A stretch of DNA of 34,558 nucleotides from positions 199,052-233,609 of the forward strand of contig NW_003122422.1 of NCBI RefSeq assembly GCF_000003605.2, given 5' to 3'. Below, piece after piece: positions 4,865-25,552 of this stretch. Source of the stretch: Saccoglossus kowalevskii. Lineage: Eukaryota; Hemichordata; Enteropneusta; Harrimaniidae. Below the pieces are notes generated by a model. That model did no database searches. It worked only from the letters and a program-made list of their open reading frames with translations, and was not told where the DNA came from. The position numbers and the translations under genes are program-made. How positions within the stretch are numbered: position 1 is the first letter of the stretch; each line of letters begins with the position of its first letter.

Positions 4865-4981
4865 CTAAAGAATGCTTTGATAACCATTCTGTTCATATTC
4901 CTGTAAATTATTATCTTGATGTGGAACTGGAACTGGAATGCATTCAGCATCTTTGCAAAGTTCCCTGAGGTTGATGTATAC
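4865..4981 (-). CDS. Kinase gene: last coding exon, C-terminal tail
   Basis: 117 nt from acceptor TACTTCCAG|GTA to the TAG at 4867-4865. Encodes VYINLREL (pYxN motif) followed by a Pro-Val repeat and a Gln/Asn/Tyr-rich end finishing NGYQSIL. No PDZ-ligand consensus. Confidence 0.9.
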   Translation of the reverse strand, partial: VYINLRELCKDAECIPVPVPHQDNNLQEYEQNGYQSIL

Positions 4982-7900
4982 CTGGAAGTAAATCAATTAG
5001 TTTGTTACTGTAAATGTGAAAAGACGGTCGAGTGTTTTACCAAGATTTGATTTATAATGAACTGAATGTCAAATAAAGTTACTTACCTTCTCAGTTGCTT
5101 TCATTTGACAGATTGAGATTGATAACTTTTCAAAGGACGGTCTTGCTGATGGGTCCTCACACCAACACTTCCTCATCAAAGCATACCTGCGATTTAATTT
5201 ATTTTGTTAAACAATGAGAAGTGTGATAGTCGATACATGTTACATAACATAAACCATAAATCACACACTCTGTGTCGTTGATAAACAGTAGGGCTGTTAG
5301 GATAAATACATTACAAAATAAAGTATCTGAGTATTACTTTCAATCATATTGCAAGTTAACTGTAAAGTAACATGACGTGAAGATAGTAAAAATTTATACT
5401 TCGAACAGTGACATCATACACAAGGAAAAGTAAATGCGCACCACAAACGCAATGTAATGATTCATAAAAATGTATTACTTATGATAACTAATGATGTTAG
5501 TACTATGATACTAATATTACTCACAGTGCATGTTCACAGTGCTTAGGTTTACGTAATCGATTACCACGTTCTAAGAATATTAATATCTCATCAGACGTGT
5601 TTCCAGCGTAGGGAGTAGCACCTTTGGTGAAATAATATTACAAATGAATGAAAATAGAATGAAGGAACATGTTTGTGCAAGATATTAAAATTGATACGGT
5701 GCTTGTATGTTACCTAGTGTTGCAATTTCCCACAGAAGAACTCCAAATGACCAAACGTCACTTTTGATTGTAAAAACCCCTCTGCATAATGATTCGATAG
5801 CCATCCATTTCCTAGGAAGTCGGTCCTGGAAAAATGAAGACAACGTAAGCAGTCGAACACAAACTTGCGGGATCTTTAAAATTGGTTCAATGATAACAGC
5901 AAATACTGATAATACATCAAGGAATCAACAACATCTATACCTGAAACTGCCAGGCTAAAATCTATTGTTATTCATGTCGAGGCAATTTCACCAAACTCTC
6001 AAAATATCGAAATGTTTTTCAACATGATTTTATGAATCGAAATAAGAAATCTATAATAATTTGAAGAAATCTATTTCGGTAACATTGAACGTTGTACCTG
6101 TAACGTGACATGATACACTTCGACGTCGCGGGCCAAACCAAAATCAGCAATTTTACAATTATACTCTCCGTCTAGCAGTACATTCCGAGCCGCCAAATCT
6201 CTGTGGATACACTGGAATTAGTATGACAATTAGTGAGACACTGTTGTTGCTGTTAATGTATATGTGATGATTCAAACTTAACATGTCGATTGTAATCACT
6301 GGCAATTGTTCTTAATGTTACTGTGTGAACAGTATCTCAGTATCAATAACTTTATCGTATTATTTCCACGATGTCTGAAAGGGAAGATCACAAGTTTGAT
6401 TAATAAGGTAATATTTAATGTACGCCAAAGTGTTTATGTCACAGTGAATCTTGTATTCTTTTATTTTCTTTTTGCAATACTCGTTTGAGTACTCGTTTGT
6501 GATACAAAATGCATTTACTCAACAGTCCGTTACCGCATGAATGTCGCAACTAACTTGACATCAATTTGTAATCAATATGAAACGTTTTCAGCAGGCTTCC
6601 GTCACCTACACATTATATTAAACATTGTGCAATGTGATTTTATCTTTTTAACATGAATAACAAACCTGTTTCTGTTCGAGATATGCCATGCCCATAGCGA
6701 CTTGATATGCGAACCGTATGAGGTCACTGTGTTTAAGATTCTTGGTTTCTCCATAAATGTTTTCGTAGACAGGATAACCATCTTTTTTGCTGTGTTTCAA
6801 AAATTTCCATAAATTTCCCATCGCCATATACTCAAGTAATAAATAAACTGGCTCTGTAAAAAGGAGGGAATATTTCAGTCACATTTATGAAAACAAACTC
6901 GACACAAAAATGTTTACTGTGCCTATCTGTCTATCTGTTTCAAAACTTGTGTTCTATTATCACGTTGGTTAAAGGTACTTGGAACGGCCATTATATCTGT
7001 TATATGCTGTGTAATATATAGCGTGTCGCCCAATAGTAGGTCAATTGTGATGCGCAAAACCATCGACTGACAGAAGACTACACCGTGTCCAAAAAGTCCG
7101 TTCGTTCATCTGGGTCATATGTGTGGACTGATTGCATACAGTGGCTGCCTTGAGAGATACCCGCATGACCACACCATGGGTAAAGTCACATATGGACATC
7201 ACAGACTTTCTGAGTCCCAGCTTTGTACCCAAGCCGTTGCCCTTTGTAGTGTGGACAAAACTTGTAAGCAGGTTGCCACATCCTTGGGGAGAACTTTACG
7301 ATGGGTTTTGAAGTGGTCCAAGTGTCACAAGCAAGGTGCAGGCGTTGTAGATAAGCTCCGATCTTGACGTTCTCAATGCCAAAGCCAGGGACATCATCAG
7401 GAAGGCCAAGGGTAGAAGGCGACATAATGCAGGTGGTTGGGTGGCAAACTAAAAACATTGACAAGAAAAGTTATGAGAGCACTATTCATCGCTATTTGAC
7501 CAAGACAATTGGTTTGAGGGCATAAAAAAGCACAAAATATCACGACTGACAGAGATCCATCAAGTGAAGAAGCTGTTTTTCGTCAGGAAGTATGCCAGCT
7601 TGTCCCTGGGGACTGGGATAAGTGGTTTTACTCTGACGAGTGCCCTTGTATTTGTTTCTGACGCCCAGCAGTCAAAATGACCCGGTCTACACCGATATTC
7701 CTGGGAAAGTACCTCCTTCTGAGCAGGTGAAATTGAGTGCCCAGACCATGGGCTGACTGAGCTTCACATAGTGCCACAGGTGACCATAGTAAATGCTCAA
7801 TACTACCTGCAGAATATACTAGAACCGACACTGGTGCCCATCATGAGGAGAAAGAAGAGGAGTGGTCCCGTCGCCGGTCGGAAGATGTACAAACAACGCT

Positions 7901-10900
7901 CGGACATGGGGTTCATCCAGGATGGTGCATCTGCTCATACCGCCTATGTGAGCCAGGAGTGGTGTTCCCGGAAACATCCTGGCCTTCTCCGCAAAGAAGA
8001 ATGGCCCCAAACTCTCCAGACTTGAATCCAATTGAGAACTGCTGGCGGATACTGAATGACAGAATCTCCAGTAGCTGACCCCTATGTCCATGAAGTAGCT
8101 GAAAACAAGGACAGTAAGGGAATGGGAGAAACTTGAGCCTTAGGTTCTAAAGGACTAGGAGCACTCTATGCCTGTGCGGCTCAAATCTGCTATTAACATG
8201 AGAGAGGGCTACAGTGGATATTAAATTATTGGATTCTAGCAGCATATGTTTGTTTTATTGATTGCTAATCAACGTGAAGAAACTTTTGGGACACGGTGTA
8301 ATTCACAAAAGGTTCTAGGCCAATTCGTCCAAGTAATAAAATCTTGCAATTCAAACGCACATTGGATAGTATCGCCAAATCGACTTAGCCGATAAATTGT
8401 GGAATATTTTTTCTTCACAATCCAAGTGATACACAAGAATGATCAATCGTTTATTGAATTTAGTAGTTAATTAGTTGGTATTATTTATTAAACCAAGAAC
8501 AACTTACAATACCTTGAACGGTACACCACCCAAGTAGTGACACAATATTAGGATGTGGTCCAATAGAGCTCAACAACGTCAACTCCAGTATTATATCCCT
8601 TCGATCAGTTACACTTGGTGACTCTGGAACCGATAAATAATATGGCAACATAGTATACATGTCTGTATATCAAGAAAAGTGTTGCTGCTTATGTGAAACA
8701 ATAGTTTCAATAATATAATTTGTAACAGACTTGCCCCAGAAAATCAAGGGATTGTGCCTGTCTGCCTGTCTTTAATTACATCTGATTGTAACCAACATAA
8801 ATATCGTCTTATCCCAATTAAATATAAGTAGATTACTTTGCCATACTTACTTTTCAACATTTTTATTGCTACCCGCACTGGGCCAATTCTTCCCGGCAAG
8901 TTTGACACAGTACCTTTCACGACTTGCCCAAACGATCCTTTACCAATTTCTTCTTGAATGTCGATATTTGTCCGATCTACTTCCCAAGGAGTGTGCCGTA
9001 AACGATCGAATACATGGTACATTTGGTATGGTTTTTTACACTCGGCCTAATGAATGTGAATAAATTATAAATGCGTGTAGTTTTTGATAGTGAGAACGAC
9101 TTCATTTAAATTGCAGTATAGACTCATATTTTCGGAATCTGACATATGTAGTCAAAGTCAGTGCACTGGATAGTTTTACTTGTGTGAGCAATCTTATCTA
9201 AGACGTTAGAACAATAAACTGCGTTATGTCATAAGCTTGTCTATAATATCACATACATGTCACAAACAAAACTGATTTCTTTCACAACTACTACCTATTT
9301 TCACGTACCTTATCCTGAAGTGTGTTCATTGTTACTAAAGCCGCATCTCCAAGCACATCAACATCAAGTGGTTGTTCTGTAGAAAAAGTAACGGAAATTC
9401 GAGAGCAATAAATTGATGCGATTCAAGTAAAGTTAATTATTACATAGTAAAACAAATATTAGTTTTGCGGGTAGTACTCACGTGAGTATGGTGTCATCTC
9501 ATTGCATGCGCTTACTGGCACACTCTCTAGGGGGCGCTGCTTTGCATCGGATGCGCGTTCTTTGTTGAATGATCCATATATTGAATTGTTCAACTCCGTA
9601 AAAATAAAAGGTCTATCGTGTATTTGCTGAAAACAAACACTTGAATACTTCAGGCAAAATGAATCAAACATAATGATCAGTTAATATGCAATTATATTAA
9701 CTGCACAATTTTCTGCTTTTAATATTCATGTAAATAATAAATCAAACACAAAGCAATGATTATAAAATGTTGCTGCTGACTATATACAATGGTAGCACTT
9801 AAGATAATGGTTAGCACATATATCAAAATCACCTGTTCCATGTGTTCCGTTTCAGAAATATCACTTGTTATTTTCCGTCTTTTCTCTAAAAAAAATATTA
9901 TAGACGTTATTCATTATAAACATTTAAAGAAGCGTACGTTGTAAACAGCGTATACATGGCGCGTCATTGTGTTACTGAATACGGAATTATTGTTATGAAA
10001 CTTACGTGAATAATGTATCATCCCACTTGCTTCATACACTGAGGTTCGGTTACTCGTTAATTCATTATTATTATTATTATCATTTCCATTGTCTACATTA
10101 TTTAGACCGTCAAATAGACCAGTTTTCTCACATATCGCATCACATATGCTACCTTGGTATGTATTATTTTTTAACCGAACATTTTCATACTGCAATTTAA
10201 AAATAAAACAATTGAAAACCCGAACGAATGCCGTTGATTAATTTGTATCAGGAAACCATTTGTTGGGGAGGTATACGTAACGTTTTTGTACAAAACAAAA
10301 CCATTTAAACCGATGGTTAATTGAATAAATGTTTGACGATATCTTCTTACCCGTCTTTTTGGCCGCATCGATCGCTTCTGTACTTCCGAATCCATGGCAT
10401 TCTGACGTTTTTCCATTTCCAGGTTGTGTTCTAAATAATGGGATATTATAATATTTTGCATGAGAACGTAAAGTATTACTCAAGGTATTAGCATGTTCAG
10501 ATAACATGACACATGGTTCATGCACTTCCAAAGACTATGAAGGCGCTCATGTAGCGTACTTCATAACTATTTTCATTGGGGTTTATATTTTAGCTGCGTT
10601 ATCTGTTTTTGACTATTCTTGTTTAATATTACTTTACCTTGTGTGTTTTTTATCCAGGAAAAAAATAAACCAATGAGCACTGCGTTCAAAGCAATCAAAG
10701 ATAAAAAACTGAATATCAGATTTTCTGTTTGAACTTCGCTGGCCTGCATATCTAATAATGGATATGAAAGCAAAACTCAATTGTTAATACATGGCATACT
10801 GCATCTTATGTGTCATCACCAGAAATTAATTTGGGAGACGTTAATAATCGCAATTTCTATATATGTGTGTACATACAATTCATGCTACATAGGTTTCTCA

Positions 10901-12013
10901 AATATATTAAATTTTAAAATAACCGTGGTGCATATTAATCACATTCTTGACTTTTAGTGAAGTATTCCTAACGAAAAAGAAGCTATACGCCAGTATGTGT
11001 TGATTAAACAGTACACAGAAAGCCAATTCGTGCCACAGTATTTATCGCTGCAATTTGAAATTTTTTTTACTTAATAACTATAATTTCCCGCATGCTGCAA
11101 TGAAAAAAAATCATGATATTGACCACTAAAATTTTAATATGAGAACAAATCACTGAGAAGGGTTATAATTTTGCCCATTTAGAAAATTAATATCATTCGT
11201 AACTACAAATGTATATTTCCCGATGCTCTTGGAAGTAATGAATAATTAACATACAATTCGTAAGCGTAGCTAAGTACATTCATATGATTCCCTACAAATC
11301 TGTTTGACACTCAAAGTAAAGGTGGGACATGTAATAAATATGTTATCACCTTATATTACCAATTCGTATAATAGGTTTACGTAATGGGCTAGTATTATCC
11401 ACGAACGTAATATGTTTAAATCTAAATCATAATGAGGTTGAGGTATACATTTTTTTTATAATATACATAATATATTTGTTATTATTCGAAAATAATCGAT
11501 GTGTTGAGTATATTTGATTTTGGTTTAATACTATAGTCAAATATGGTCGCTTTTTGCTTAAAACAATATCCCGGAAATAGCGTTGATAAGTATTCTATAC
11601 TAATGATATAACAAAAATACCTTCTGTGATTTGTTGAATTGTTCTCATTTCCATGACCACACTTGTCATACTTGTCCGCGTGCACCTATGAATAATACAA
11701 GAATTGACATTATGTAAATCCGTAATCTGAATATCTAAAAATTAACGACAAATCAAAAACCGACAAACCATTTGAAGTCAAACCTACCTACGGGGTAAAA
11801 CATCCTCTTTATCTAAAAGGTAAAATTAGAACAAACTTTGTTATTTTTATGTTTGAACCTCAACGTAGACAATTTTTATACTATCATAACTTTTAATTTA
11901 CCTTTTCTACGTCTCCATAAACAAAAAAATATTGTAATAACAACTAGGATCACAGCAACGATTACCAATAAGGTCACTTTCGTCACATCCTCCTCCATGT
12001 TGCTTGACTCCAT
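4865..12013 (-). CDS. Receptor-type tyrosine kinase with almost no ectodomain (spliced gene, TM1 form)
   Basis: Joining 12015-11902, 10430-10351, 10189-10006, 9885-9833, 9626-9482, 9376-9309, 9046-8851, 8623-8513, 6853-6666, 6211-6098, 5825-5714, 5621-5525, 5186-5087 and 4981-4865 gives one frame from ATG 12013 to TAG 4865: 558 aa, all junctions GT/AG and phase-consistent. Order: ~12 outside residues, TM helix (13-33) then RRRK, a ~210-residue Tyr-rich juxtamembrane region, kinase domain ~245-515 and a short tail. Catalytic elements are intact: GKGSFG 249-254, VAIK Lys276, alphaC Glu293, HRD 382-384, DFG 402-404, and WMAIESL in place of the APE box. WMAIESL and the activation-loop style resemble Tie/Ret/Cad96Ca-type receptors rather than FGFR/VEGFR (WMAPE). 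YENV (Tyr65), YENI in the kinase insert and YINL in the tail are pYxN, Grb2-SH2-type motifs. No Ig or other ectodomain exon was found upstream on this strand; exons further away cannot be excluded. Confidence 0.9.
5087..5186 (-). CDS. Kinase gene: alphaH/alphaI exon
   Basis: 100 nt, acceptor AATCGCAG|G, donor GAGAAG|GTAAGT, phase 2 in, 0 out. Encodes [18 protein letters not shown], the conserved C-lobe end (CW...P..RP.F). Confidence 0.95.
5525..5621 (-). CDS. Kinase gene: alphaG exon
   Basis: 97 nt, acceptor TTTCACCAAAG|GT, donor GCACT|GTGAGT, phase 1 in, 2 out. Encodes [14 protein letters not shown] and a [10 protein letters not shown] segment that corresponds to the 'GyRmekP..C' block of RTKs. 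Confidence 0.93.
5714..5825 (-). CDS. Kinase gene: P+1 loop and alphaF exon
   Basis: 112 nt, acceptor TTTTTCCAG|GAC, donor ACTAG|GTAACA, phase 0 in, 1 out. Encodes [12 protein letters not shown] and [14 protein letters not shown], diagnostic of receptor-type tyrosine kinases. Confidence 0.97.
6098..6211 (-). CDS. Kinase gene: catalytic loop and DFG exon
   Basis: 114 nt, acceptor CTAATTCCAG|TGT, donor TTACAG|GTACAA, phase 0 in and 0 out. Encodes [10 protein letters not shown] (catalytic loop with the tyrosine-kinase signature DLAARN) and [10 protein letters not shown]. The activation loop has one tyrosine (EVYHVTLQ), not the YY pair of FGFR-type kinases. Confidence 0.97.
6666..6853 (-). CDS. 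Kinase gene: hinge, kinase insert and alphaE exon
   Basis: 188 nt, acceptor TTTTTACAG|AG, donor AAACAG|GTTTGT, phase 1 in, 0 out. Encodes the hinge [11 protein letters not shown], a short kinase insert with [11 protein letters not shown] (three tyrosines, one pYxN) and [13 protein letters not shown]. The upstream intron holds the Tc1-like element. Confidence 0.95.
7079..8300 (+). mobile_element. Tc1-like DNA transposon, degenerate, in a kinase intron
   Basis: The element runs 7081-8298 and is flanked by TA on both sides (7079-7080, 8299-8300), the Tc1/mariner target duplication. Its ends are inverted: CACCGTGTCCAAAAAG at the left against CTTTTGGGACACGGTG at the right, with one mismatch in 16. 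At ~1.22 kb it is near the usual Tc1 size, so both ends are kept. It interrupts the intron between the alphaC exon (8513-8623) and the hinge exon (6666-6853), in antisense to the host gene. Confidence 0.9.
7190..8080 (+). pseudogene. Tc1-family DD34E transposase remnant
   Basis: Fragments in several frames recall a Tc1 transposase: an N-terminal helix-turn-helix stretch (RLSESQL...VATSLGRT, ~7200-7300), the first catalytic Asp region [10 protein letters not shown] (~7611-7640), the second in [10 protein letters not shown] (~7914-7943) and the last Glu in [14 protein letters not shown] (~8015-8055). Frameshifts separate the blocks, including one between the KEEWP and SPDLNP segments, and stops follow the HTH part. 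No intact protein can be made, so the copy is immobile by itself. Confidence 0.85.
8513..8623 (-). CDS. Kinase gene: alphaC-helix exon
   Basis: 111 nt, acceptor GGTTCCAG|AG, donor TTCAAG|GTATTG, phase 1 in and 1 out. Encodes [11 protein letters not shown], with the alphaC Glu that pairs with the P-loop-side Lys, and [12 protein letters not shown], the classic RTK beta4 segment. A GTAAGT eight bases further would break the frame and was not used. Confidence 0.95.
8851..9046 (-). CDS. Kinase gene: N-lobe exon with P-loop and catalytic lysine
   Basis: 196 nt, acceptor CATTCATTAG|GCC, donor TGAAAA|GTAAGT, phase 0 in, 1 out. Contains PWEVDRTNI (RTK juxtamembrane-to-kinase junction), the glycine loop GKGSFGQV and VAIKMLK with the ATP-binding Lys. 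Confidence 0.95.
9309..9376 (-). CDS. Kinase gene: exon before the kinase core
   Basis: 68 nt, acceptor TTTTCTACAG|AA, donor GATAAG|GTACGT, phase 1 in, 0 out. Encodes [18 protein letters not shown] then TLQDK; leads into the kinase domain. Confidence 0.8.
9482..9626 (-). CDS. Kinase gene: juxtamembrane exon with SIYGS and TPYSQ tyrosines
   Basis: 145 nt, acceptor TTTGTTTTCAG|CAA, donor CTCAC|GTGAGT, phase 0 in, 1 out. Encodes [20 protein letters not shown] and ends EMTPYS. The ending matches that of the 10006-10189 exon (GMIHYS, same split codon), which hints at an old internal exon duplication. Confidence 0.85.
9833..9885 (-). CDS. Kinase gene: short juxtamembrane exon
   Basis: 53 nt, acceptor TTTTTTTTAG|AG, donor AACAG|GTGATT, phase 1 in, 0 out. 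Encodes [17 protein letters not shown]; basic cluster, then Ser/Thr/Glu-rich. Confidence 0.8.
10006..10189 (-). CDS. Kinase gene: Tyr/Asn-rich juxtamembrane exon
   Basis: 184 nt, acceptor AAATTGCAG|TAT, donor TTCAC|GTAAGT, phase 0 in, 1 out. Opens with YENVRL (pYxN-type Grb2 motif) and also has NTYQG, TSVYEAS and IHYSQ. An (AAT)n tract encodes an Asn run ([12 protein letters not shown]) that may be length-variable between alleles. Confidence 0.85.
10351..10430 (-). CDS. Kinase gene: juxtamembrane exon ([10 protein letters not shown]...)
   Basis: 80 nt, acceptor ATTATTTAG|AA, donor GACGG|GTAAGA, phase 1 in, 0 out. It is the shared acceptor for both TM exons. Highly charged and basic at its end (RPKRR), a typical inner-membrane juxtamembrane stretch. 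Confidence 0.85.
10638..10751 (-). CDS. Kinase gene: alternative transmembrane exon TM2
   Basis: 114 nt, acceptor ATTATTAG|AT, donor CACAAG|GTAAAG, phase 1 in and 1 out. Encodes [11 protein letters not shown], then a hydrophobic helix ([17 protein letters not shown]..), then FFSWIKNTQ. Aligned without gaps to TM1, Met1, Ser4, Leu16, Ala20, Val24, Ile26, Phe29 and Phe30 coincide. An alternative acceptor (ATGCAG|GCC) is present four codons in but breaks the phase. Including both TM exons would give a two-span protein with the kinase domain outside, so mutually exclusive use is likely. Confidence 0.7.
11631..11685 (-). CDS. Candidate alternative first exon feeding the TM2 exon
   Basis: 55 nt between CATAG| and GAAG|GTATTT. 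In the frame that exits in phase 1 it contains ATG then [15 protein letters not shown], and it joins in frame to the TM2 exon (G|AT ATG CAG). In the frame required by the TM1 exon it hits a stop (GTA TGA), so it cannot sit between TM1 and TM2 in one transcript. It may be the start of a second isoform from an internal promoter, with or without use of the upstream AG. Transcript data are lacking. Confidence 0.4.
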
Positions 12014-12015
12014 AA
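11902..12015 (-). CDS. Kinase gene: transmembrane exon TM1 (first coding exon)
   Basis: 114 nt, acceptor TTTTCTAG|TT, donor AAAAG|GTAAAT, phase 1 in and 1 out. After two bases it reads ATG (Kozak-like if spliced from the exon ending AAAG, with G at -3 and G at +4), then [12 protein letters not shown], a helix of ~21 Val/Ile/Leu-rich residues ending FFCLW, then RRRK. Acidic residues before and basic residues after the helix predict outside N-terminus and cytoplasmic C-terminus. It has the same length and phase as the exon at 10751-10638 and looks like its duplicate. Confidence 0.8.
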
Positions 12016-12246
12016 CTAGAAAATATAACGTTATTTTTAGTTCATAAATGCACATATTTCATATGATCATATATATTTTCTTGCTCTGTAGATTTTATTT
12101 TATGATCAACTTTACATGAACGTAGCAGATTTTAATTTGGGTAATAGCATCAAAGTGGACATTATGTAGAACAATCATGGCTCATATACAATTGCATGCA
12201 TCTTTAGTTTTGATTCACTCTTCCAAGATTATGTCGAATAGTATGT

Positions 12247-12483
12247 ATATTACGAAGATACCTCAAAGTATGCACGAAGACAGTAAAAATCGAAAAGTTT
12301 AGAACAGAATCAGCAAACCCCGTTTTGTGGATTCTGGTTGAACCCTGGCGGCAGCCATGTTTGTTTTTAATATTAGAGGACGCTCACGTGCGTAATCATT
12401 CCGTATTTCGAGTTCGCATTTCCTTATATGGTAGGATAAAAATACTTCGTAAAATACCGCAAAATTACGGCTCACTGTGACGA
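12247..12483 (-). repeat. Dispersed repeat copy B, inverted relative to 15994-16275
   Basis: Read on the minus strand it follows GCCGTAATT.TGCGGTATTTTACG, then ATCCTACCATAT, GGAATGATTACGC, GCGTCCTCTAAT, ACATGGCTGCC, GCTGATTCTG and GAGGTATCTTCGTAATA. The same blocks occur in the same order on the plus strand at 15994-16275, roughly four in five bases identical by eye. No ORF or target duplication is clear, so it is probably a non-autonomous element family. Confidence 0.8.
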
Positions 12484-12677
12484 TTCTATGACAAGAACAT
12501 TAATTATAATTGTGATACCAGCAAATATATTTTTACATAATTTAGTAATTTGCATTTCACCAATTTATGTATATCTGAGTATTCATTGTATCATAGAGCT
12601 ACAATTATAATGTAACAATTAATCGCAACATAGTTTGAAAAATGATGTAGACAAGGTGCAGAACTGACTCCACATAC

Positions 12678-12790
12678 CTTTAAATCACACACGACGTTTA
12701 CAAAAGTCGTAAATAATTTCGGAAGTAGCACTCATAAAGCGAATACGTGTGTTGATCAACTCAGACCAGCCACAGCAACTGTCCGTTTAC
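12678..12790 (-). promoter_or_regulatory. Probable 5'UTR exon end of the kinase gene, with a 16-codon uORF
   Basis: On the minus strand a good donor, TTTAAAG|GTATGT, ends at 12678, upstream of the TM1 exon. The preceding bases hold ATG (12735-12733), 16 codons (MSATSEIIYDFCKRRV) and TGA, so the exon could be a leader with an upstream ORF. The 5' limit is arbitrary. Splicing to 12015 would place G at -3 of the main ATG. Not proven without transcripts. Confidence 0.35.
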
Positions 12791-12812
12791 TCAAGGAAGT
12801 AAATAGTTTTAT

Positions 12813-12830
12813 TTGACCTTACTAGGTCAA
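12813..12830. promoter_or_regulatory. Everted nuclear-receptor half-site palindrome (ER4-type)
   Basis: TTGACCT-TACT-AGGTCAA: perfect 7-bp arms around a 4-base spacer, giving two AGGTCA half-sites in everted orientation. It lies in the region between the two divergent genes, close to the presumed kinase leader exon. Everted repeats of this half-site are known nuclear-receptor sites. Use here is unproven. Confidence 0.35.
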
Positions 12831-14499
12831 TGGTTAATAATTAAACTGTGTATGCACTGATATACCTACTCAGTGATATAGGTGTCATGCCTGTGTTGCA
12901 ATCAGGTCGCTGATAAGCTGGCAACAATCAGGTATTCTTTGTTGTATCCAGGCCGTTCATATAATATCAATTCGTAAGAGCCAACACATTGATTATTATT
13001 TTACGTCGTAAAGGTTGCTAGAGAAATGTCGACGGCTGTAACCAGCACAAATTAATAAAACCAAAAACATACCAAACCTATACGTATTCTTACAGAGTCA
13101 GACTTGGAATATTATAACGGGGAGCGCGTTTGTCGACAATGGCGAGGCACATCTGTGAGTTCCTATCTGGTGTTTATATGATCGTATATTATATGTTCTT
13201 GTACATCAGAAACCAAAGAAACTAAACGGCAACATCGTATAGCTATTGAACCGGGTCTCCATTTAAGTTTAGACAGACCGTATTGGTTCAAAATTATTGA
13301 CCTGGAGTTTTAACAAGACTATCTTATGTTTTAATGCTTGTAGTCACTTAGTTTAACGATAAATTAACGACGTTGCCATGAAAGTAGATACAAATTTCTG
13401 TTGATATATAACTTGGACATCGTTTTTGTCGATGCCGTTGGGATAACAATTATTTGTCATAATTCTTTTTTTTTAAATATTGTGTCTATTTATAATTATC
13501 TTCATCATAACTTGTGCTTGTTTTAGTTATGATTGGCAATCATGAATAAAAATGAAGCAGTTCTTACAAAGTGAGTAAAGATATGATACTAATGCACTTA
13601 TGATATGTGTAAAGCATGTACTGTTTCATATGGAAAAAAAACAAAAAGAAAATATAGCAAAATTGTACATTATATAGAGCAAATGCGTAGTTTTTGTTAT
13701 TTAATTATTGATAAAAAAACACACTCAAAACCTAAAGAATATGTTATATCAGACAGATAGAAACATATTATTGTTTTCTGTCAATGCTAGCATTTACAAA
13801 CTCTATGTGTACCATTATGTTATAATAAAGTTAAACGGTTGCACGTACGTGACCACAATTGATACATATGACATCGCGTTACATATATTATGTTTATCAA
13901 TTCACACACAGTTCTGTATAAATAATACAAGTGTTTAAGTCCATGTTTTAGCCTTCCGAATATTTGTAATATATCTGTCGCCGTCGATACAATTGCAGCC
14001 TGCAACACGTAAATAAACCTTATATGGCCGAAAACCATTGATTATAACGAATAATAACGCCATGTTCCATACACATGTATTAACATGATGATGTACATGT
14101 AGTATAAACACTTTGTGTAATGTTTTTTATTATCGCCAAACAGTATATTCTTCTCAATAACGTTTTTTTATGGCTGTTATAAAAAATAACTGGCAGAGAT
14201 CGTACAAAGCAAACTAGGTCATACTACCAACCAATATGTAGTCAACGAATAGGTTAATGTTTTTTTTAATTGTTAATGTACTGAAATCTCGCCTAACAAC
14301 TCACATTCCCTTGCATGCATAGTACATTGTGTATGACAGCTTAATACAAATAATCCAGCTGAATGCTAATTCTAATTCTTAAAATTGCATCGCTAATAAG
14401 TAGAATGATAGCAAAGTGTGAAATATATCCCCATTTCTCTTGAAAACTTCTGAATCAGTGTAGAAATGACGATGCCTCTTAAATGAAAACGTGTTCACA

Positions 14500-14513
14500 A
14501 GCGCCACCAATCG
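14500..14513 (+). promoter_or_regulatory. Repeated 14-mer AGCGCCACCAATCG, copy 1
   Basis: Identical to 15224-15237 in the same orientation, and GC-rich in an AT-rich context. Both copies are upstream of the Ig-receptor start, the second about 85 bp before it. Possible shared regulatory site or trace of a repeat; flanking bases do not match. Confidence 0.3.
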
Positions 14514-15237: not shown

Positions 15238-15321
15238 ATATGTTGTCGGACGTTTTTACATATTAACTGTAATGTCACAGTTCATACAATCTCCCAGTGA
15301 CAAGTAGACACGGGTTACTTG

Positions 15322-15409
15322 ATGCAAGAACTAAACATGTGTATGAGATTCACACACGTGTATTGTCAATTGGTATGGTTAATTATATCTACTGTACTGT
15401 ATCGTGGAG
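15322..15409 (+). CDS. Ig receptor: signal-peptide exon
   Basis: Starts MQELNMCMRFTHVYC, then hydrophobic QLVWLIISTVLY and a small-residue end (RGA). An in-frame TGA lies at 15298-15300, so this ATG, or the in-frame Met codons at residues 6 and 8, starts the protein. Donor GGAG|GTAAGT, phase 1 out. Confidence 0.85.
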
Positions 15410-18400
15410 GTAAGTTGATAATGGTTAGAATATACAACACATGAATCTATCACGTCAGTTTATTTTAATGACAACGCATTGTACTAATTTGTGTTTTGTT
15501 GAATATAGCATGGTCCTATGAGTTTACAGAGACTCCGATCGACACACTTGTCTGTACTAGTAGAACTACACAGATGAACTGCTCATTCGATGGATTGTCG
15601 TTACTCGATAGAACGCGCGTACAATGGCTGCAATACAAGGAAGACATGAACGGAGCTACTGATGTGAGCATAGGCAGATATACCTTTCACGACAGTTTCA
15701 CCATTGTCGGCGATGAAAATGAAGATGAGTATCATTTACGTATAGAAAACAGTACATTGGAGTTTGAGGCAGAGTATGAATGCAAGGTGATCGGTTATGA
15801 GGCTTCCGATTTTGCTATGCTGTACGTGTTAGGTAAACATCATTTGTTATCACTAATCATTAATCTGTTTGTGTTCACATGGTTAGATGAATAGCTCATG
15901 GCACCATTTAGTTACAATTTCCAGCCTACGAGATTGCCATCGTGTTATTGTTCAATAGAACGTATATTATCATACATCTGTCACCGTAACCGTTACATCG
16001 TGCCGTAATTGTGCGGTATTTTACGGGGTATTTTCATCCTACCATATTAGGAAATGCGAATTCCAAATATGGAATGATTACGCGCGTAAGCGTCCTCTAA
16101 TAATAATAAAAAAAACATGGCTGCCACCGGGGTTTAGCCGGACTCCATACAAAGAATTTCGCTGATTCTGTTGGATTTCGGCATTCCCGATGATGTATTC
16201 TCCCTACTCCGCTGCGCGCAGCCGATACTGCCGTTGTACTGTCTTTAGGCATATTTTGAGGTATCTTCGTAATAACCTATATTCATAAACTCTTGTTTTA
16301 CTGTATCTTGATGTCTAACATACAGTGGCATAACTCACATTGAAATTCGGTCATAAATTACATAATAACGTAATTACATATTTGATTGTTGAAATATATC
16401 AGAGCATGGTCCTGTCTGTGCCGTGATTTCAAATATTGTTGTGGAAAATGAGGACGTTGTCTTCAACTGTACAATCGATAAAGCTGTTCCACCTGGTGAA
16501 CTGCTGTGGTTACAAGATGGCGACGTGATGTCACGAGAAAATGACTCTCTCGTCCACATATGGATAACGTCGTTCCATAGATCAAATAATGGTTCAGTAG
16601 TCAATTGTCAACTGGATCACGTAACTCTGCCACCACCAGATGTAACGTGTGATGAAGATATTATCATGATTGTGCAATGTAAGTAGATTCCTTTAAATTC
16701 TTTCTTGTGATTCTATTAAAGTTCAGTAAATGTAACGTCATCCATGTCTTTCATCTATTCTATTTGTATGTCACTCTCTCCGGATAACATTTTTGCATTA
16801 AGCATGAATATATTTCAGTCAGTCTATAAATCAGTCTGAAATAAATCAAAATAAACCGATATGTTGTTGGTAAAAAACAATAATGTCATGTTACACCTAA
16901 TATATTGCATAAACATAAATGTATGCCAAGAATTCATTTATTTGTTGAATTAGTTAATTGACAAATATTGATATTTTACAGCAATTTTATCAGACAAAAT
17001 AATATATGTTTCTCTAACAGACCCTCCTGTGGTAAAAATATGGAGTGAATCAATGGACACTGTCATCGAAGGTGACAGCTATGAAGCGGAATGTAGAGTT
17101 GCTGTGTATGGATTTCCAGAAGATATTAAACATTTATTTTGGAAAGGACCCGGTGGAGAAATATACGACGGATCAACTTTGTATTTACACAACGTGTCAA
17201 GAAACGATGAAGGAAACTATACATGTGTCGCTATGAATGAATATCACGATGGACGGAATGGAACTGGGACAGCGTATGTGGAATTAGATGTACAGTGTCA
17301 GTATTTGTTTAGTGTGTGAATGGTTTACAAAAAAAACAAAAAAAACATTTATATTAAATGCCATGAATAGAATCGTAAATAAAAAGGAAATTACAAGTTA
17401 AAATTTGTATCCTTTTTAAACATGTGTTTATGTGTGTCTTTGTTCTGTAGTTAGCCCAACAGTTAAAATTGTTGACGAATCCGACGGCAATGTCATCGAA
17501 AATGAAGCTTACCTAGCTAGATGTACATCATATGCCAATCCAGATCCAACATACACATGGGTGGATCCACTAGAAAACAAAATCGAGGTGGAAAATGATC
17601 AGGTGCTGGTTGTGAGTAATATTACTAGGTCACAGAATGGTTCATATACATGTGAAGCTGAAAACATATTCTGGGATAACAGTACTGGATATGGAGAATC
17701 ATTTGTGTATGTCAATGTGCAGTGTAAGTCTAAATTATACATTAGTTTAAGATATTGAAGTGAAGTACCAACTATTAACTAACACATAATGAGCGTAATA
17801 CATTATATAAATACTTCGTTTGTCACATTGCGGATTCATTGTACTGCAAAATGCTAACGCATCGTTTTTTTAATCATAATATGTCTCGATTTTCAGTCGA
17901 ACCAGCATTGTTATCCACTTTTAGTGGGGCAGTTACGAACGACGGGACATGTAAAGCTGGCGAGTCTTTCTCCGTGCAGTGTTTGGTTGTGTACGCCAAT
18001 CCAAATGAAGTTGACCTGATATGGTTGAACTCGACAACACATCAAGTTGGAGAAGATCTATTAATATTCAACCCAGTTAAAAAAGAACACACAGGAAAAT
18101 ATATATGTCATGGGAACAACACGTTTTGGGATGGTACTAATGGAAGAAATATAAGTGATGTTTTAATAGACGTTCAATGTGAGTATATACTTTTTTCTTC
18201 AAATTCAGTTAATGTAAATCCGGCATTGTGGTTTGAATATTCTCCCCATACTTCACGAAGGTAGAAACAAATGCCAACATTTTATATTGTGTATATTATG
18301 GCCACATATTGAAACTGGTTCGACGATAAACATGTGACAATTATCGGAGGGTATATTTACAGTAGCATTTACCTAATTACTGGCCATAAAGAACAAAGTA

Positions 18401-21400
18401 CCCACTGACTAGAAGATGTGCGAGTTGGGATGGGATATGTTACCTTGTTTACAACTTTAGTTCAACGCACATGCTCCACCAAAAAGAAATATATTTAATT
18501 TCGTACAGTACAAGTTGAAATAAATAAATAAAAAAATGTTTGATTTACAATCAATACATTTGGCAGATTAATCACTCTATTAGGACAACGAAGGTAAAGT
18601 AATTGAAAGGGATAATTATACTGCCAGTTGTTATGTTTATTCAAATCCTTATGGGAATATAACATAGTTAGACCCACATGGGAACGTTTTGAACACAGAC
18701 AATAACATTGAGTTATAACACACGGGGAGCACTGACGATGGAACTTATATGTACCTGTGTTGCATTTAACGAATTTCTTGGATGTACAATGTAAGTCACT
18801 AAATAAATCATTGCATTGAACCTAATAAGCTTATGTTTTACATTATCAATTTAAAATTGATTTCAAATCGTGTTGTAAATAAATCATAACATGATTTTAC
18901 TTGAACAAATAATCAATATATCTGTTTTGTAACAGATTATTCAAATGCAACTACATTTGTCCACGGCGATGCATCTTCGACTGGGGAAGTAATAGAAGGA
19001 ATTGTTTTCTCCGTTGAATGCGTTGTTTTTTTTAACCCAAGCGTTGACAAAATGGGTTGGATTAACAATTAAAGTCATGACAAATGGATGAATTTCACCA
19101 AAATCGACCGAAATGAAAGTGACTACTATATGTCAGGCAATGAATACTTTCTACTATAATTCAAATGACGGGCATATAAATTGACGTACAATGTATGTAT
19201 ACTTGCACACCACGTAGTCTTAAATTTTGATTGTGAGTACAGATATAATATAAATATACTACATTATCTAACTATTAGGTTTAAAGTTGTTCGTTACTTT
19301 AAGAACACCTCGCAAAAACTCGTGCTGAATTCACTCATTGCACTACAGTTAAATCATATAAAGAATATAACATAGCTCAAATATATTTTGACAATGCAAT
19401 ATACAAATATTAATGAGGTAAGGACTCATCCAAACCATGCTGTAATTCAATATACAAATACAAGCCTTCTACATAACAGATCAACATAATCCTGAATTTT
19501 CGCGTTCCCATTTGCTTTACCTGTATAAAACACATTATTCATAATAATATATTATAATAAATATTAATAAATGTTAGCACTCATGCAACGTACTAAAATA
19601 ATGCTGATACAAGTTAACCCACACGTGACACAAATTACATAACAACAAATATTGTAATCTTACTTGTAAGACCACCTATTTTATATTACACCTAAATTGT
19701 TTGAGTTTGTCGTAATTCTAGTCTTTATCAGACAATAGTGTTCATCTGCATCAGACAATATAGCTTCCAACCTGCTCGTATTATGCTATTTAAATCATCT
19801 TCGAACCTAAATCAACTTCTTACGAGCCACATGGTTCAAAAGAACATATAAACTGTCATTTTCTAACTGTACCAAATAAACTATAACTTCATGTGTAAAT
19901 ATGGGGTATCCCAGATAACTGGCTCTATTTATGTACTATTCTGGAGCTTGTGTTATTTTGCTTAGTATTTTCTTATCGTCAGATTCACCAGAGGTTGACC
20001 TTAGTGACGACACCGTGACATTTGTTGTGGAGGGGTCAGATTACCATGCAACATGTAATGTGGATGCCAACCCTGATGCTGATGTTTACTGGAGACATCC
20101 TGATAACGACATTACAGCCGGCAGTGAACTGCATTTGTATGATGTCAAAAGAGATGAACATGGCAACTATACCTGTCATGCAAATAATACATTTTGGGAT
20201 GGCTCAACTGGAGAGGGCAGTGTTTCACTTGATCTTGACGTACAATGTGAGTAGACAAAAACGAACTACATTTATCGTGCATATTGCTAGCGGTAGTCGA
20301 TTGCAGAATTCATTTTCGCAAGCCTATAGTAACTTAGCATAACACACAATTCTTATTATATTTATAATGAAGATCCTCCTACTGTTGCTCTTTCATCACC
20401 ACTTGTACGTAAGGAAAGTGAAAACGTGACTTTGAAATGCGTTGTTACTGATGGTAATCCCACGGAAGCTGATTTAAGGTGGTTACACAATGGGGAAACT
20501 GTACACGATGATGGAGTGTTAGACTTGCATGACATAACCAGAGAGGATCATGGAGAATATAACTGTACTGCTAGTAACACGTACTATGATGCAAGTCGAG
20601 GGTTTGGTAGCGGGATTACCTATATAAATGTACAATGTAAGTAAATTCAGATATGTAATGCAACTGTAGTAGTATTATTTTGAGACACGTTCTTATATAT
20701 CAAATTTGGACGCTAAATTTTGCGAAATTCGACAAATTATACGTACAGTGCTGTAGGATCGTGTTTGTTGATAAAAAGGCTATTTTAGAATAATTGATCA
20801 TATTTCTTTAATCCACGTAATACCGGGCAAACATAGTGTGTATGCTACAGAATGAGCAAAAACAAAGTAATATTTATTATACATCTATGAGATTAGTAAG
20901 CAAATGGATATAAGATATTTTTTTCTTTTCACCGAGATGCTCTTCAGCTACGTAGATTCTATATACGGAGAACATACTTGCTAACATTTTACCCATCTAT
21001 ATTTGGTTGGCGAAAGTAATTGTGGCTAAGCTTTATAAAGAATAACAGATATATAAGAATGCTAATCAACGCAGTTGAGGTCCTATATAATCACATCGTG
21101 GAATTTATATTCGATAGTAGGTCTCGTTTGTATATGATGTACTTCCGTAATATATTCCTTAAAACCCATAACATTTCACTGCACAAATATTAGTCTCTAC
21201 AAATGTATTTTCCTGTAGAGCAGATAAATACCAAAGATAGCTACAAACTCCACGTGATTGAAAACGTAATTTCTGTTTACAGATGACCCCATTGTTACCG
21301 TATTAGGAGAAGTCCGATGTAAAGTAGACGAAGATGTCACACTAAAATGCCAAGGAGATTCCAATCCCCCGCCTACTGTTGTTACATGGAGTATAGATGG

Positions 21401-24400
21401 ACAGATTGTAGCTAATGATACGTCGTTTACAATTAATGACGTCAAGAAAGATGACGCCGGTAGTTACTTGTGTACTGCTTATACCGTATTTTATGACGAT
21501 TCACTGGGAAGTGATGAAGACGTCACACAATTGGTAGTTGAGTGTGAGTTTTTTTATGTATTTGAATTATGTTCTAAATTCATTTGTCATTTTCAAAATC
21601 CACCTGTACTAGCCTTATTGTATTAATTTGAAATACTAAATAATATGCTTCCGCAAAACACAAACTTGGCAGTTTCAGTAACGCTGCTTGTTTTTTCATA
21701 AGCGCTCGCGCAGAGGCGAGCAAAATATAACTCGGTTTTAAAAACAATCATTTGAATATTAAAACAAAATTCAAAGCTGTTATTTATGAGACGCAATTGT
21801 GATTTTCATGCACACTTTCCCAGGATGCAATGCACGTCCGGTGCATCTGATAATAGGTGTGTTCCAGATAAAAAAAATATGACACAAAAGCACAATTTAA
21901 CATTTGTTGTCTTCTAATGTAACATTTAGCTTTCTTATAGAAGCACACGTGGTCTAACAATTCAAATAGTAAATGGTATTTCCCATTGTAGATGCGTCCG
22001 AAGTTCACATTAATGTTCACAATCATGCAGTTATATTAGATGACAATTTGGCGATAACGTGTTCAGCTACAGAAGGAATCCCTGATCCCTACAGAATTGA
22101 ATTATACATCATTGGTAGCGGTGACGAAGAAACCATCGTAGCAGAAACCGACGTTGACGTTGAGCTTCTGTATCAAGTCCAGAGTGTAACCATGGCAGAT
22201 AATGGAACGTACTATTGTGTGGCCTACACCGAATATTACGACACGTCTGAAGAGAAAACATACAGTGATAAAGAAGACGTATTTATTATATGTTAGTTGC
22301 ATTCATTTAAATCATGTATCTGTGCATATATATATATCTATCTATCTATATATTCATTGTTGACCAATCGCTTAAAGAACTATTTAATCTGCTGATATTA
22401 CTAGCTGTACAACTGGTTATTGAAGTTATTGGCTAGAATTATTCACTATATGTATGAGTTGTATTTGATGATAACCTTTTTCATCACAATAATACCAATT
22501 TAATAAGCAGAAAGGGCTCTTCAGTCGACATCCTTCAGAAATAAACAGTAAATCGATATCGTCGAACTCTCATAACCAATTGACGTGTAACGTGAATATT
22601 GTGGGGATTACTGTGTCACATTGTTTAGTACTATTCCACACAACACGTCACATCTGTGTAATGTATGCAACATAGTCTATCACGACGTATTAAATTGTCT
22701 TTATTCATGAACCAGTAATGCATTTAATTTTGTTGTTGTTAGATGCACCAATAATCACAGGTGAAAACTCCTATACGGTTGAAGAGGAAAGCGCTGCACA
22801 CATATCTTGTGTAATTAATGCTCACCCTGTCGTAAAAGAAACTGATATCAAATGGGAATATGAAAGTGGACAAGTCATACCTGACACATACATTAATATA
22901 CCAGATCCTATTGGTACCGTGGTTACATCTACCTTAACTATAGACTCTGCGACTGAGGATCACGGTGGAATATACACGTGTTATGCATGGAACGACGTTG
23001 GAACTAGCAGTTATAATATAAATTTGACGGTCAACTTACCAGGTAAAGCATATTTTCCAGCTCCATTCGATTTTGACGACAGTTATCTCGTTCGCTTTTT
23101 AGTAAAATGCAATATTTTTTACAGATTCAATTGGCGGATGGATTATTTTTGCAGTTGTCGCAGGAACGTTTCTGTTAATACTAATCATTATTGTCTTATC
23201 AAAACTGATTTGTAGGACTGACAAAACAGAAGCTAATGAACAAGGTTAGTTTGTCAGTATGGAAAATATTTGATTATTTATGTCAACCCATTATTCGGTC
23301 ATTATAATATTATTAAAATAAACATATCACTACCAGAGTCCTATTATCATGTAGTAATCTCGAAACAGTATTCCTTATACGAAGGCAATTGATCGTTTGG
23401 TTTATTGGGTGGCAATGCAGATGGAAAGCGAAAATGCGCTTATAGCTAATTTTGCAGACAAAAGTGATCAGCATTTGTTTTGTTGCCTAAACAATCCTTA
23501 AATATTTGGACAACCACTGAATTTCACTGAATTTTCACAAACAGTGCCCAATTACTGATCGCCAAATCTAAATGCATTGTAGTAGCGCGAAATTATAATT
23601 GTTAATATAAAATAAGAATATATGTTTTGCATTGACATTTATTTGTCACGAACACTGCGATAAAGACCATCCGTTTTCGACATTGTGAAATGCTTTTGTT
23701 TTTATGCAGAAAAATACAGTATTTTACCAAGTAAAATCTAATTTACTAAAGTTATTGCTCAAACATGGCTGGACACCTACATAGTTTGTGATTTTATTCA
23801 GTTTTTTTTTTCAGTCATAATTCAAGACAAATAAAATATAGCTAATTATTTTTGTTAACGTTCTTTATATCGTTAATTCTGAGAGTTATTTATGGTTGCT
23901 TAGTTAATACAGTTCATTTTGAATTAATCTTAAACAAAATTTTTGAATTATCTTGTTAAAATCAGTCTCAATCAGTCGAAAACGGCAAGTCTTTATCGTA
24001 GTGTTCACAAGAGGTGAGGACAAAATAAAAGCTCAACGCTCCTTGTATTTGATTGATACGATTTTGTGTTTTATTTTCAGACTCAAATCGCATGGAGTAC
24101 GTATGAATCAGAAGCAATACAACCATGTCCGACCGTTATTTATGTATATCTTGACTTTGTTCTACTTCAAAGACACACCGTGAAGAAATATTAGTGAACA
24201 TTATAAGCATATGCTACATATGACTTTATATTATTATTGTTTAATCAACGTTTTTTGAAATACATGAAAATATATTTTTGTATCCTCCCCATAGAAACCT
24301 ACTTCGAGAATTTGGTCAGCTTTCAACACTCGGCGGAGCAAATCAAGACATCGCTGATGAAAACGATAACCCGGGTAAGTTGCACAAAGATACATGTCAT

Positions 24401-24625
24401 ACAAATTCTGATCTGTTTAACAATTAGTAACATTTTCAATTTGCTTTTCGCAACTGTGTTTGTCGTTTCTTTCCCTTACAACATCTTCCTAATTTATGTC
24501 TGCTTTGTCGCAAGTCACAAATAAATCAGATGACGAAAAACTAAAAAACAGTGATGTCTCCAAGGAAAGCGATAATGATTCTAATACAAAGATATTGGAC
24601 TCTAAGGTATGATTATAGTATATCG

Positions 24626-24656
<31 letters not shown>

Positions 24657-25552
24657 AATTCACAACCAAAATACAAGAAATTTATAGAATTAGTTTTATA
24701 TCTTGGACATCCAACAATTTCATTGGTCCTGGTGTGCTATTAATGTTTCAGACTGCTGAAGATAAGATGGAGGATTTAGACTCAGATATCTCCAGTAATG
24801 GTAATGTTACTGCTGATAACAATATTTCATTGATAACATAACCGCATTTTAATCAATTTACTACATTATTCACAATTTATTAAAATCTTGTTTTTTCTCT
24901 TGTAGACGGCAATCCAAATGACATGAAAGGGATAAGTTCTAAACATAAAAAAGTAGGTTTTTCTTTATTGTTTATACTCATTGTTGTATCATCACTATAA
25001 TTTCAAAGCTTTAGTCGTATGCTTCATTGATTATAGATAATGCAGTGATTTACTGCGTTTTTGGAACTGTAGGCAGCTGACTGGCTACAATCAGCTCAGG
25101 AAACGACAGTTGTAATCCTGAAAATTAAGCGAGCGTCTTCAATATATAAATATTACTGAAACAAATTATTGATAGATAATCAGCTACTGTCTCACTGAAA
25201 TATGAAATGAACGCATGAATTGCTAGGCTTGTCACTGTAATAGCTATTGCTTTGATATAAATGTTGTACTTTGTTCCACTCATCCAAACACACTAACTAG
25301 ACTGAGTAGGAATCGCGGTCGCTTCTGCACTAGATTTGATGATGATACCTGGATGACATCCCGATTCTGGACATACTTACATTTGTCAAACTATTTCCAT
25401 ACATGTCTCTTCATGATTAGAATATACTACTTGTTGCTTTCATTATTATTCGTATTCTCGTTCATTTCGATTGATCTACTCAGTGTGGAATATCATCTAA
25501 CTGATTTGTATTGATTTATTTTCAGAGTGTTCGCTTTGGGGAAGAGTGTTGA
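15322..25552 (+). CDS. Ten-Ig-domain single-pass receptor, nephrin/Kirrel-like first domain (spliced gene)
   Basis: Joining 15322-15409, 15509-15832, 16403-16678, 17021-17296, 17451-17723, 17897-18178, 19983-20246, 20373-20636, 21283-21543, 21992-22291, 22743-23042, 23125-23244, 24081-24096, 24295-24374, 24530-24606, 24752-24800, 24906-24952 and 25526-25552 gives one frame of 1107 codons plus TGA, all junctions GT/AG. Layout: signal peptide 1-29, Ig1 31-137, Ig2-Ig10 138-969, TM ~974-996, cytoplasmic tail 997-1107. Every Ig domain is one symmetric phase 1-1 exon, most ending ..VQ|Y(or F) before the next domain, the usual cell-adhesion Ig pattern. Ig1 (EYHLRIEN..EAEYEC) resembles the first domain of nephrin/Kirrel proteins; later domains carry the invertebrate-style N(T/E)xxWDG(S/T)...VQY. 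Many N-x-S/T sites. The tail has no tyrosine, is acidic and ends KKSVRFGEEC, a PP1-docking RVxF-type motif. Probable role: cell-surface adhesion or recognition. Confidence 0.92.
15509..15832 (+). CDS. Ig receptor: Ig1 exon (V-like, nephrin/Kirrel type)
   Basis: Acceptor TATAG|CA, donor TTAG|GTAAAC, phase 1-1. Contains QMNCSFDG, VQWLQY, DEYHLRIEN and EAEYECKV: the two Ig cysteines, the core Trp and the D/E-x-A-x-Y-x-C end. The order and the 'EYHLRIENSTLE..AEYEC' block match nephrin/Kirrel domain 1. Confidence 0.92.
15994..16275 (+). repeat. Dispersed repeat copy A in the Ig1-Ig2 intron
   Basis: Same family as 12247-12483, in inverted orientation. Carries about 45-60 extra bases near 16170-16235 (CTCCGCTGCGCGCAGCCGAT), absent from the other copy. 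No ORF. Confidence 0.8.
16403..16678 (+). CDS. Ig receptor: Ig2 exon
   Basis: Acceptor ATATCAG|AG, donor CAAT|GTAAGT, phase 1-1. Encodes VVFNCTID, LLWLQDGD, NNGSVVNCQLDH. The end is unusual (VTCDEDIIMIVQ) with an extra Cys. Position and size match nephrin/Kirrel domain 2. Confidence 0.88.
17021..17296 (+). CDS. Ig receptor: Ig3 exon
   Basis: Acceptor CTAACAG|AC, donor ACAGT|GTCAGT (non-consensus at +3), phase 1-1. Encodes YPPVVKIW, YEAECRVAV, NDEGNYTCVAMNEYHDG, ELDVQ. Confidence 0.93.
17451..17723 (+). CDS. Ig receptor: Ig4 exon
   Basis: Acceptor TTCTGTAG|TT, donor GCAGT|GTAAGT, phase 1-1. Encodes YLARCTSYANPDPTYTWVD and NGSYTCEAENIFWDNS, ending YVNVQ. Confidence 0.93.
17897..18178 (+). CDS. 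Ig receptor: Ig5 exon
   Basis: Acceptor GATTTTCAG|TC, donor TCAAT|GTGAGT, phase 1-1. Encodes FSVQCLVVYANP, VDLIWLNS, HTGKYICHGNNTFWDGT, ending LIDVQ. Confidence 0.93.
18567..18790 (+). pseudogene. Ghost Ig exon 1 (or poison exon)
   Basis: Between TTGGCAG| and ACAAT|GTAAGT lies a broken Ig domain: GKVIERDNYTASCYVYSNP, then TAG (18665-18667) where the core Trp of a neighbouring domain sits, then TAA (18716-18718), a frameshift near TDDGTY..TCVAFNEF, and a shortened end before LDVQ. It is about 50 nt shorter than the live Ig exons. The donor is intact; the acceptor is followed by stops. A decayed tandem copy of an Ig exon. Confidence 0.8.
18936..19192 (+). pseudogene. Ghost Ig exon 2 (or poison exon)
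   Basis: Acceptor TTTGTAACAG|AT and donor ACAAT|GTATGT still look usable. Frame: YYSNATTF, GEVIEGIVFSVECVVFFNPS, MGWINN, then TAA (19070-19072), and a frameshift just before the second Cys (DYY..CQAMNTFYYNSNDG). If spliced in it would end the protein after Ig5. Confidence 0.82.
19983..20246 (+). CDS. Ig receptor: Ig6 exon
   Basis: Acceptor TTATCGTCAG|AT, donor ACAAT|GTGAGT, phase 1-1. Encodes YHATCNVDANP, DVYWRHPDND, EHGNYTCHANNTFWDGS, DLDVQ. Confidence 0.93.
20373..20636 (+). CDS. Ig receptor: Ig7 exon
   Basis: Acceptor TATAATGAAG|AT has a weak pyrimidine tract; donor ACAAT|GTAAGT; phase 1-1. Encodes YPPTVALSS, VTLKCVVTDGNP, LRWLHNGE, EYNCTASNTYYDAS, YINVQ. Only 126 bp of intron separates it from Ig6, and both are 264 nt, so they may be a recent pair. 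Confidence 0.93.
21283..21543 (+). CDS. Ig receptor: Ig8 exon
   Basis: Acceptor TGTTTACAG|AT, donor TTGAGT|GTGAGT, phase 1-1. Encodes YDPIVTVLG, VTLKCQGDSNPPPTVVTW, KDDAGSYLCTAYTVFYDD, ending LVVE. It has no internal Met start and is easy to miss in ORF scans. Confidence 0.92.
21992..22291 (+). CDS. Ig receptor: Ig9 exon, lacks the core tryptophan
   Basis: Acceptor CATTGTAG|AT, donor TTATAT|GTTAGT, phase 1-1. Encodes LAITCSATEGIPDPYRIELYI, where the Trp of strand C is replaced (ELYI), and MADNGTYYCVAYTEYYD. A long Glu/Asp/Lys-rich G-strand region follows. Confidence 0.9.
22322..22354 (+). repeat. TA/TCTA microsatellite
   Basis: ATATATATATATCTATCTATCTATATATT in the Ig9-Ig10 intron. Confidence 0.7.
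22743..23042 (+). CDS. Ig receptor: Ig10 exon (I-set, membrane-proximal)
   Basis: Acceptor TTGTTGTTAG|AT, donor CCAG|GTAAAG, phase 1-1. Encodes AAHISCVINAHP, IKWEYESGQ, EDHGGIYTCYAWNDVGT and a NLTVNLP end. Closer to a standard I-set domain than Ig3-Ig8. Confidence 0.93.
23125..23244 (+). CDS. Ig receptor: transmembrane exon
   Basis: Acceptor TTTTTTACAG|AT, donor ACAAG|GTTAGT, phase 1-1. Encodes DSIGGWIIFAVVAGTFLLIL then IIIVLSKLICR: a 23-25 residue helix with a basic stop-transfer, so the N-terminus is outside. Confidence 0.93.
24081..24096 (+). CDS. Ig receptor: 16-nt microexon
   Basis: Acceptor TTTATTTTCAG|AC, then TCA AAT CGC ATG GA, donor GTACGT. Phase 1 in, 2 out; encodes D-SNRM-E. A donor four bases later (GTATGA) gives the wrong phase for the next exon. 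Chosen because it alone joins 23244 to 24295 in frame. Confidence 0.65.
24295..24374 (+). CDS. Ig receptor: cytoplasmic exon 1
   Basis: Acceptor CCCCATAG|A, donor CCCGG|GTAAGT, phase 2 in, 1 out. Encodes NLLREFGQLSTLGG and ANQDIADENDNP. Another open frame through it does not fit the next exon. Confidence 0.75.
24530..24606 (+). CDS. Ig receptor: cytoplasmic exon 2
   Basis: Acceptor AATAAATCAG|AT, donor TCTAAG|GTATGA, phase 1 in, 0 out. Acidic/Lys-Ser rich: DEKLKNSDVSKESDNDSN..; probably disordered, with possible CK2-type acidic phosphorylation sites. Confidence 0.75.
24625..24650 (+). repeat. (AT)n microsatellite
   Basis: About 13 AT units, then GTGTGT, in the intron after cytoplasmic exon 2. 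Confidence 0.85.
24752..24800 (+). CDS. Ig receptor: cytoplasmic exon 3
   Basis: Acceptor AATGTTTCAG|ACT, donor AATG|GTAATG, phase 0 in, 1 out. Encodes TAEDKMEDLDSDISSN, acidic. Confidence 0.72.
24906..24952 (+). CDS. Ig receptor: cytoplasmic exon 4
   Basis: Acceptor TCTCTTGTAG|AC, donor AAAAAA|GTAGGT, phase 1 in, 0 out. Encodes GNPNDMKGISSKHKK; the last Lys begins the PP1-type motif. Confidence 0.72.
25526..25552 (+). CDS. Ig receptor: terminal exon, RVxF motif and stop
   Basis: Acceptor TTATTTTCAG|AGT, then SVRFGEEC and TGA at 25550-25552. With the previous exon it makes KKSVRFGEE, matching [RK]-x-[VI]-x-F with basic residues before and acidic residues after, as in many PP1-binding proteins. 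Confidence 0.75.
   Translation, partial: SVRFGEEC

Follow-up and report, generated by a model that had tools for sequence, protein, structure and literature searches.

The window, that is, the whole stretch of 34,558 nucleotides analysed (G+C 34.4%, CpG observed/expected ratio 1.0), contains genes that appear to be intron-rich and of animal type. A tyrosine kinase gene on the minus strand and an immunoglobulin (Ig) receptor gene on the plus strand lie head to head, with 3.3 kb separating their first coding exons; the introns of both genes do not exceed 1804 nt, with medians of 207 and 198 nt. The original prediction of two complete frames diverging across about 3.3 kb is borne out by these gene models, which were derived from the sequence alone. 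Elsewhere in the window, a 209-codon open frame containing HPTCCRYFTDLSKQERGKRNKEKQQRN occupies positions 300-929 on the minus strand (206 of its residues were searched against Pfam, and nothing matched at E values up to 0.1), a tandem array of 3.1 copies of an 83-base unit lies at 2908-3166, and several diverged repeats, related to one another, are found at 27437-32364. The window gave no Rfam match at gathering scores, and a search for relatives in viral contigs returned 12 pattern matches, none of which was confirmed.

The kinase gene runs on the minus strand from 12015 to 4865 and is modelled as 17 exons, with GT/AG borders at 16 of 16 introns and one joined frame of 626 residues. Its features are as follows:

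11902..12015, minus: first transmembrane (TM) exon, TM1, 114 nt, phase 1-1, with an in-frame ATG two bases past the acceptor
11788..11812, minus: juxtamembrane exon of 25 nt, which forms a phase 1-1 unit with the next exon
11621..11685, minus: juxtamembrane exon of 65 nt
10638..10751, minus: second TM exon, TM2, 114 nt, phase 1-1, with an in-frame ATG two bases past the acceptor
9309..10430, minus: five juxtamembrane exons with the tyrosine motifs YENV, YQGS, YEAS, YSQK, YGSF and YSQQ
4865..9046, minus: eight exons encoding the N-terminal approach, the kinase domain (PF07714) and the C-tail; stop codon at 4865-4867
about 7050..8300: Tc1/mariner-like insertion with a disrupted frame and similar ends in the largest kinase intron, its limits approximate and judged by eye rather than with a family library

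From the N-terminus, 12 residues are followed by a TM helix, a juxtamembrane region rich in tyrosine, and the kinase. The TM, the juxtamembrane region and the intact kinase claimed for this gene at the outset are thereby retained, and the minimal outside part holds conditionally, amounting to 12 residues only if the putative ATG in the TM1 exon is used. Among the tyrosine motifs, YENV and YENI fit the pattern of Grb2-type YxN sites. The Pfam search places a tyrosine kinase domain (PF07714) at residues 311-577 with an E value of 1.6e-87 (293.5 bits). The catalytic motifs are intact, comprising the glycine loop, the VAIK lysine, HRDLAARN and DFG, and the alignment to FGFR3 in the PDB search pairs the helix-C glutamates of the two kinases. 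Among the 60 PDB matches listed out of 2549, the best single-domain chains include FGFR3 (261.7 bits), Tie-2 (256.8 bits) and RET (247.7 bits), which lie near one another; the top row is EGFR at 321.6 bits, a chain in which the kinase is present twice, at 159.5 bits per copy. The predicted structure of one 65-residue kinase exon taken alone has a mean pLDDT of 63 and is not drawn on here. The frame of the model is set by the chain of exon phases: in this frame, 16 exons score between -5.4 and 9.7 (the last exon is unscored), and for the exons at 11685 and 10430 another frame scores higher than that of the model.

The second TM exon of the kinase gene is new beyond the original prediction. Both candidate exons precede the kinase, as judged by hydrophobicity by eye and by flank charges only. 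TM1 and TM2 share 58 of 114 bases, compared with a mean of 41 in segment-preserving codon shuffles, only 1 of 20,000 of which reaches 58; their protein score is equalled or exceeded in 8 of 2000 shuffles. When each exon was compared without gaps with the rest of the window, on both strands, the highest agreement was 56/114, and no third TM-exon copy stood out there. With a value as close as 56 occurring by chance elsewhere, the signal, though real, is not overwhelming by identity alone; the equal length and phase of the two exons strengthen it. TM1 and TM2 look like a duplicated pair, perhaps mutually exclusive. Neither kinase TM exon resembles the TM exon of the Ig gene more closely than shuffles do (score reached by 786/2000 for TM1 and 1975/2000 for TM2).

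The flank charges (-3/+4 for TM1 and -4/0 for TM2) favour an N-out orientation for both helices, and a protein carrying both would consequently break the charge rule for one of them. Mutually exclusive use appears likely, and a two-TM protein is also possible, since the full exon chain is open. Each of TM1, the small-exon pair that follows it and TM2 is a phase 1-1 unit, so each can be skipped in frame. The acceptor of TM1 scores 7.4 and its entry phase is 1. TM2 has an open frame, with splice-site scores of 5.7 (acceptor) and 7.5; its coding score of -5.4 is the lowest in the kinase gene, and TM2 is missing from the exon scan's list of 34 minus-strand rows. Given this poor coding score, TM2 may be an unused relic.

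The Ig gene, on the plus strand from 15322 to 25552, is modelled as 18 exons encoding 1112 residues:

15322..15409, plus: start and signal-peptide exon, the signal peptide judged by eye
15509..23042, plus: ten Ig-domain exons, all phase 1-1
18584..19181, plus: two degenerate Ig exons interrupted by stops, located after the fifth and before the sixth Ig exon of the model, which omits them
23125..23244, plus: TM exon, judged by eye
24081..25552, plus: six tail exons, the Tyr-free tail ending in KKSVRFGEEC

This model agrees with the claimed signal peptide, ten Ig exons, TM and Tyr-free tail. The combination expected of an Ig-superfamily receptor is found, namely Ig domains, a TM and a signal peptide, the latter two assigned by eye. 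Pfam Ig_3 is recognized in nine stretches of the protein; the Y-x-C motif occurs in nine of the ten Ig exons (the second is without it) and the Trp likewise in nine (the ninth is without it). The tail comprises 114 residues and no Tyr. Read-through of the exon at 24081 gives a short alternative tail ending in MEYV*, with one Tyr. The six-exon tail is the one adopted in the model and stops at the same place as the tail predicted originally; both ends may be isoforms. Among the 60 PDB matches listed out of 108, the best are to carcinoembryonic antigen (CEA), DSCAM, MDGA1 and contactin-1, the first at 95 bits, while ectodomains of the receptor tyrosine kinase (RTK) type rank lower in the same list (otk 47.0, VEGFR2 36.6 and MuSK 32.1 bits). 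By closest resemblance, the Ig chain would be an adhesion-type receptor. Phase 1 at the membrane-proximal junctions, also part of the original prediction, holds for all three TM exons of both genes; it says little, because phase 1 is usual for Ig modules.

As a side observation, the KSVRF sequence in the Ig tail (24906-25552, plus) fits the RVxF docking pattern of protein phosphatase 1; the motif was picked post hoc, and 46 of 20,000 shuffled tails contain a matching pattern.

Within the window, neither the exon scan, which was trained on these same two genes, nor tblastn revealed an ectodomain-like exon upstream of the kinase. The 34 minus-strand rows listed by the scan comprise 14 exons or parts of the kinase gene, 13 rows upstream of 12015 and 7 elsewhere. 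The 13 upstream rows have lengths of 46-84 nt and coding scores between -4.1 and 4.5, compared with 16.6-36.5 for the ten Ig exons. When the Ig protein was used in tblastn with E values up to 1, no Ig exon was detected on the minus strand, save a chance match (E 0.78). Since the kinase exons themselves score as low as -5.4 and at most 9.7, the scan rules out only an Ig-like or well-coding ectodomain, and small or unusual exons could escape it; a signal-peptide first exon lies outside its reach. Between 12016 and 16500, nine ATG frames with a hydrophobic stretch are listed, one of which, at 13070, has a possible weak phase-1 donor, as judged by eye. A start peptide at this position could supply a signal peptide, without a binding domain.

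Two copies of an unnamed repeat, the only ones seen in the window, flank the signal-peptide and Ig1 exons, with 83% identity in one block and 85% in another:

12236..12485, minus: repeat copy 1, inverted relative to 15988-16284
15988..16284, plus: repeat copy 2, in the Ig1-Ig2 intron

These repeats bear on the proposal that one former Ig-RTK was split by inversion, since flipping the segment between them would yield a frame of 765 codons, its one stop included, that runs from the signal peptide and Ig1 into TM1 and the kinase. However, an open frame is expected wherever the junctions are of phase 1, and proves nothing. A break between the Ig part and the kinase would leave a single TM exon, whereas three are present, one in the Ig gene and two in the kinase gene. 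The Ig part is closest to adhesion molecules, and just two repeat copies are seen, in a single species. The split is disfavoured, and such an origin appears very unlikely. A normal kinase ectodomain could also lie beyond the window, or its exons could have escaped the scan through small size or divergence; the Ig gene would then sit inside an intron of the kinase gene. The splice sites speak for this: the good TM1 acceptor (7.4) and its phase-1 entry look as if an upstream exon were spliced on, and TM2 also has an acceptor (5.7). Beyond the window, however, the required intron would exceed 22.5 kb, out of scale with introns that reach at most 1.8 kb here, and within it the minus strand shows no ectodomain-like exon by tblastn or exon scan. 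This arrangement is considered unlikely.

A functional link between the neighbours can be envisaged in the form of a split receptor, in which the Ig chain binds the ligand, the naked kinase signals, and the two genes are kept together and co-regulated. In favour of such a division are the complementary architectures of the two genes, which lie head to head with their first coding exons 3.3 kb apart, and the contrast between an Ig tail free of tyrosine and a kinase chain rich in it. What joins the two chains is nevertheless their adjacency; the TM helices carry no opposite charges (by eye), and at 3.3 kb the gap is longer than would be usual for a common promoter. Such a receptor is judged improbable, slightly more so than the undetected ectodomain. 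Chance neighbourhood, with no functional link and a kinase that is an RTK having lost its ectodomain, is a good deal more plausible, falling a little short of an even chance: none of the tests performed here shows a link, although two complementary membrane receptors side by side are suggestive, no more. It overlaps the preferred explanation, which leaves the link undecided. The interpretation offered originally thus finds partial support, with the inversion split disfavoured, co-evolved partners possible and a chance neighbourhood retained.

The preferred explanation, held with moderate confidence as a whole, is that the minus-strand gene specifies a receptor-type tyrosine kinase resembling FGFR, Tie and RET, STYK1-like in its minimal outside part and activated by lateral partners, with an Ig receptor of possible partnership next to it. 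The two would be separate genes, both with intact frames. Duplication of the TM exon would have given transcripts that probably carry either TM2 or TM1, the latter with its own juxtamembrane piece included or skipped, and either TM is predicted to place the kinase in the cytosol. As the kinase appears to have no ligand-binding domain, its activation would most likely occur by lateral clustering in the membrane, whether by means of its own TM or with the help of a partner receptor; signalling could then proceed via the tyrosines of the juxtamembrane region, the kinase insert and the tail. The product of the Ig gene would be an adhesion-type receptor, perhaps a partner, perhaps not.

A further and quite unlikely extension combines an Ig-sensing chain and an ectodomain-less kinase into a two-gene receptor, the kinase picking its TM exon to select the partner. 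In a bolder form, the repeats would let the signal-peptide/Ig1 segment flip, so that the same cassette could head either gene. A kinase with intact motifs, no sensor of its own and two possible TM exons would provide a natural system for activation from within the membrane; if the Ig neighbour were the sensor, this would be an animal receptor that divides sensing and kinase between two linked genes.

The anatomy of the locus is unusual, its parts are ordinary. A head-to-head kinase/Ig pair was not described in the titles or abstract openings of the literature searched, a scope that leaves out most subscription papers. The kinase domain resembles those of FGFR, Tie and RET; in contrast to the minimal outside part found here, these receptors have large ectodomains fused to the kinase. 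Separate sensing and signalling chains recall TCR/CD3 and DAP12. In those systems, however, the signalling chains are kinase-free and pair with the ligand-binding chains via TM charges, whereas no opposed charges are seen here and the putative signalling chain has a kinase. Members of the KIN-16 family have a short outside part. This family of lineage-specific RTKs in C. elegans includes OLD-1 and FLOR-1, described in the part of the source considered as two receptors acting as a pair (PMC10523662); that pair consists of a kinase and a pseudokinase, whereas here a kinase stands beside an Ig receptor. The human STYK1/NOK is single-pass and kinase-like with a very short outside part, 22 residues for which the portion of the article considered reports no ligand (PMC13259870), compared with 12 residues here if the start lies in the TM1 exon. 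STYK1 is a pseudokinase with altered motifs (Table 2 of PMC13259870), whereas the motifs are intact here, and that portion of the article does not mention for STYK1 a second TM exon like that of the present kinase gene. The STYK1 and KIN-16 parallels indicate that a kinase with hardly any ectodomain is of a known kind; what is new is the Ig neighbour, together with a TM exon that appears to have been duplicated.
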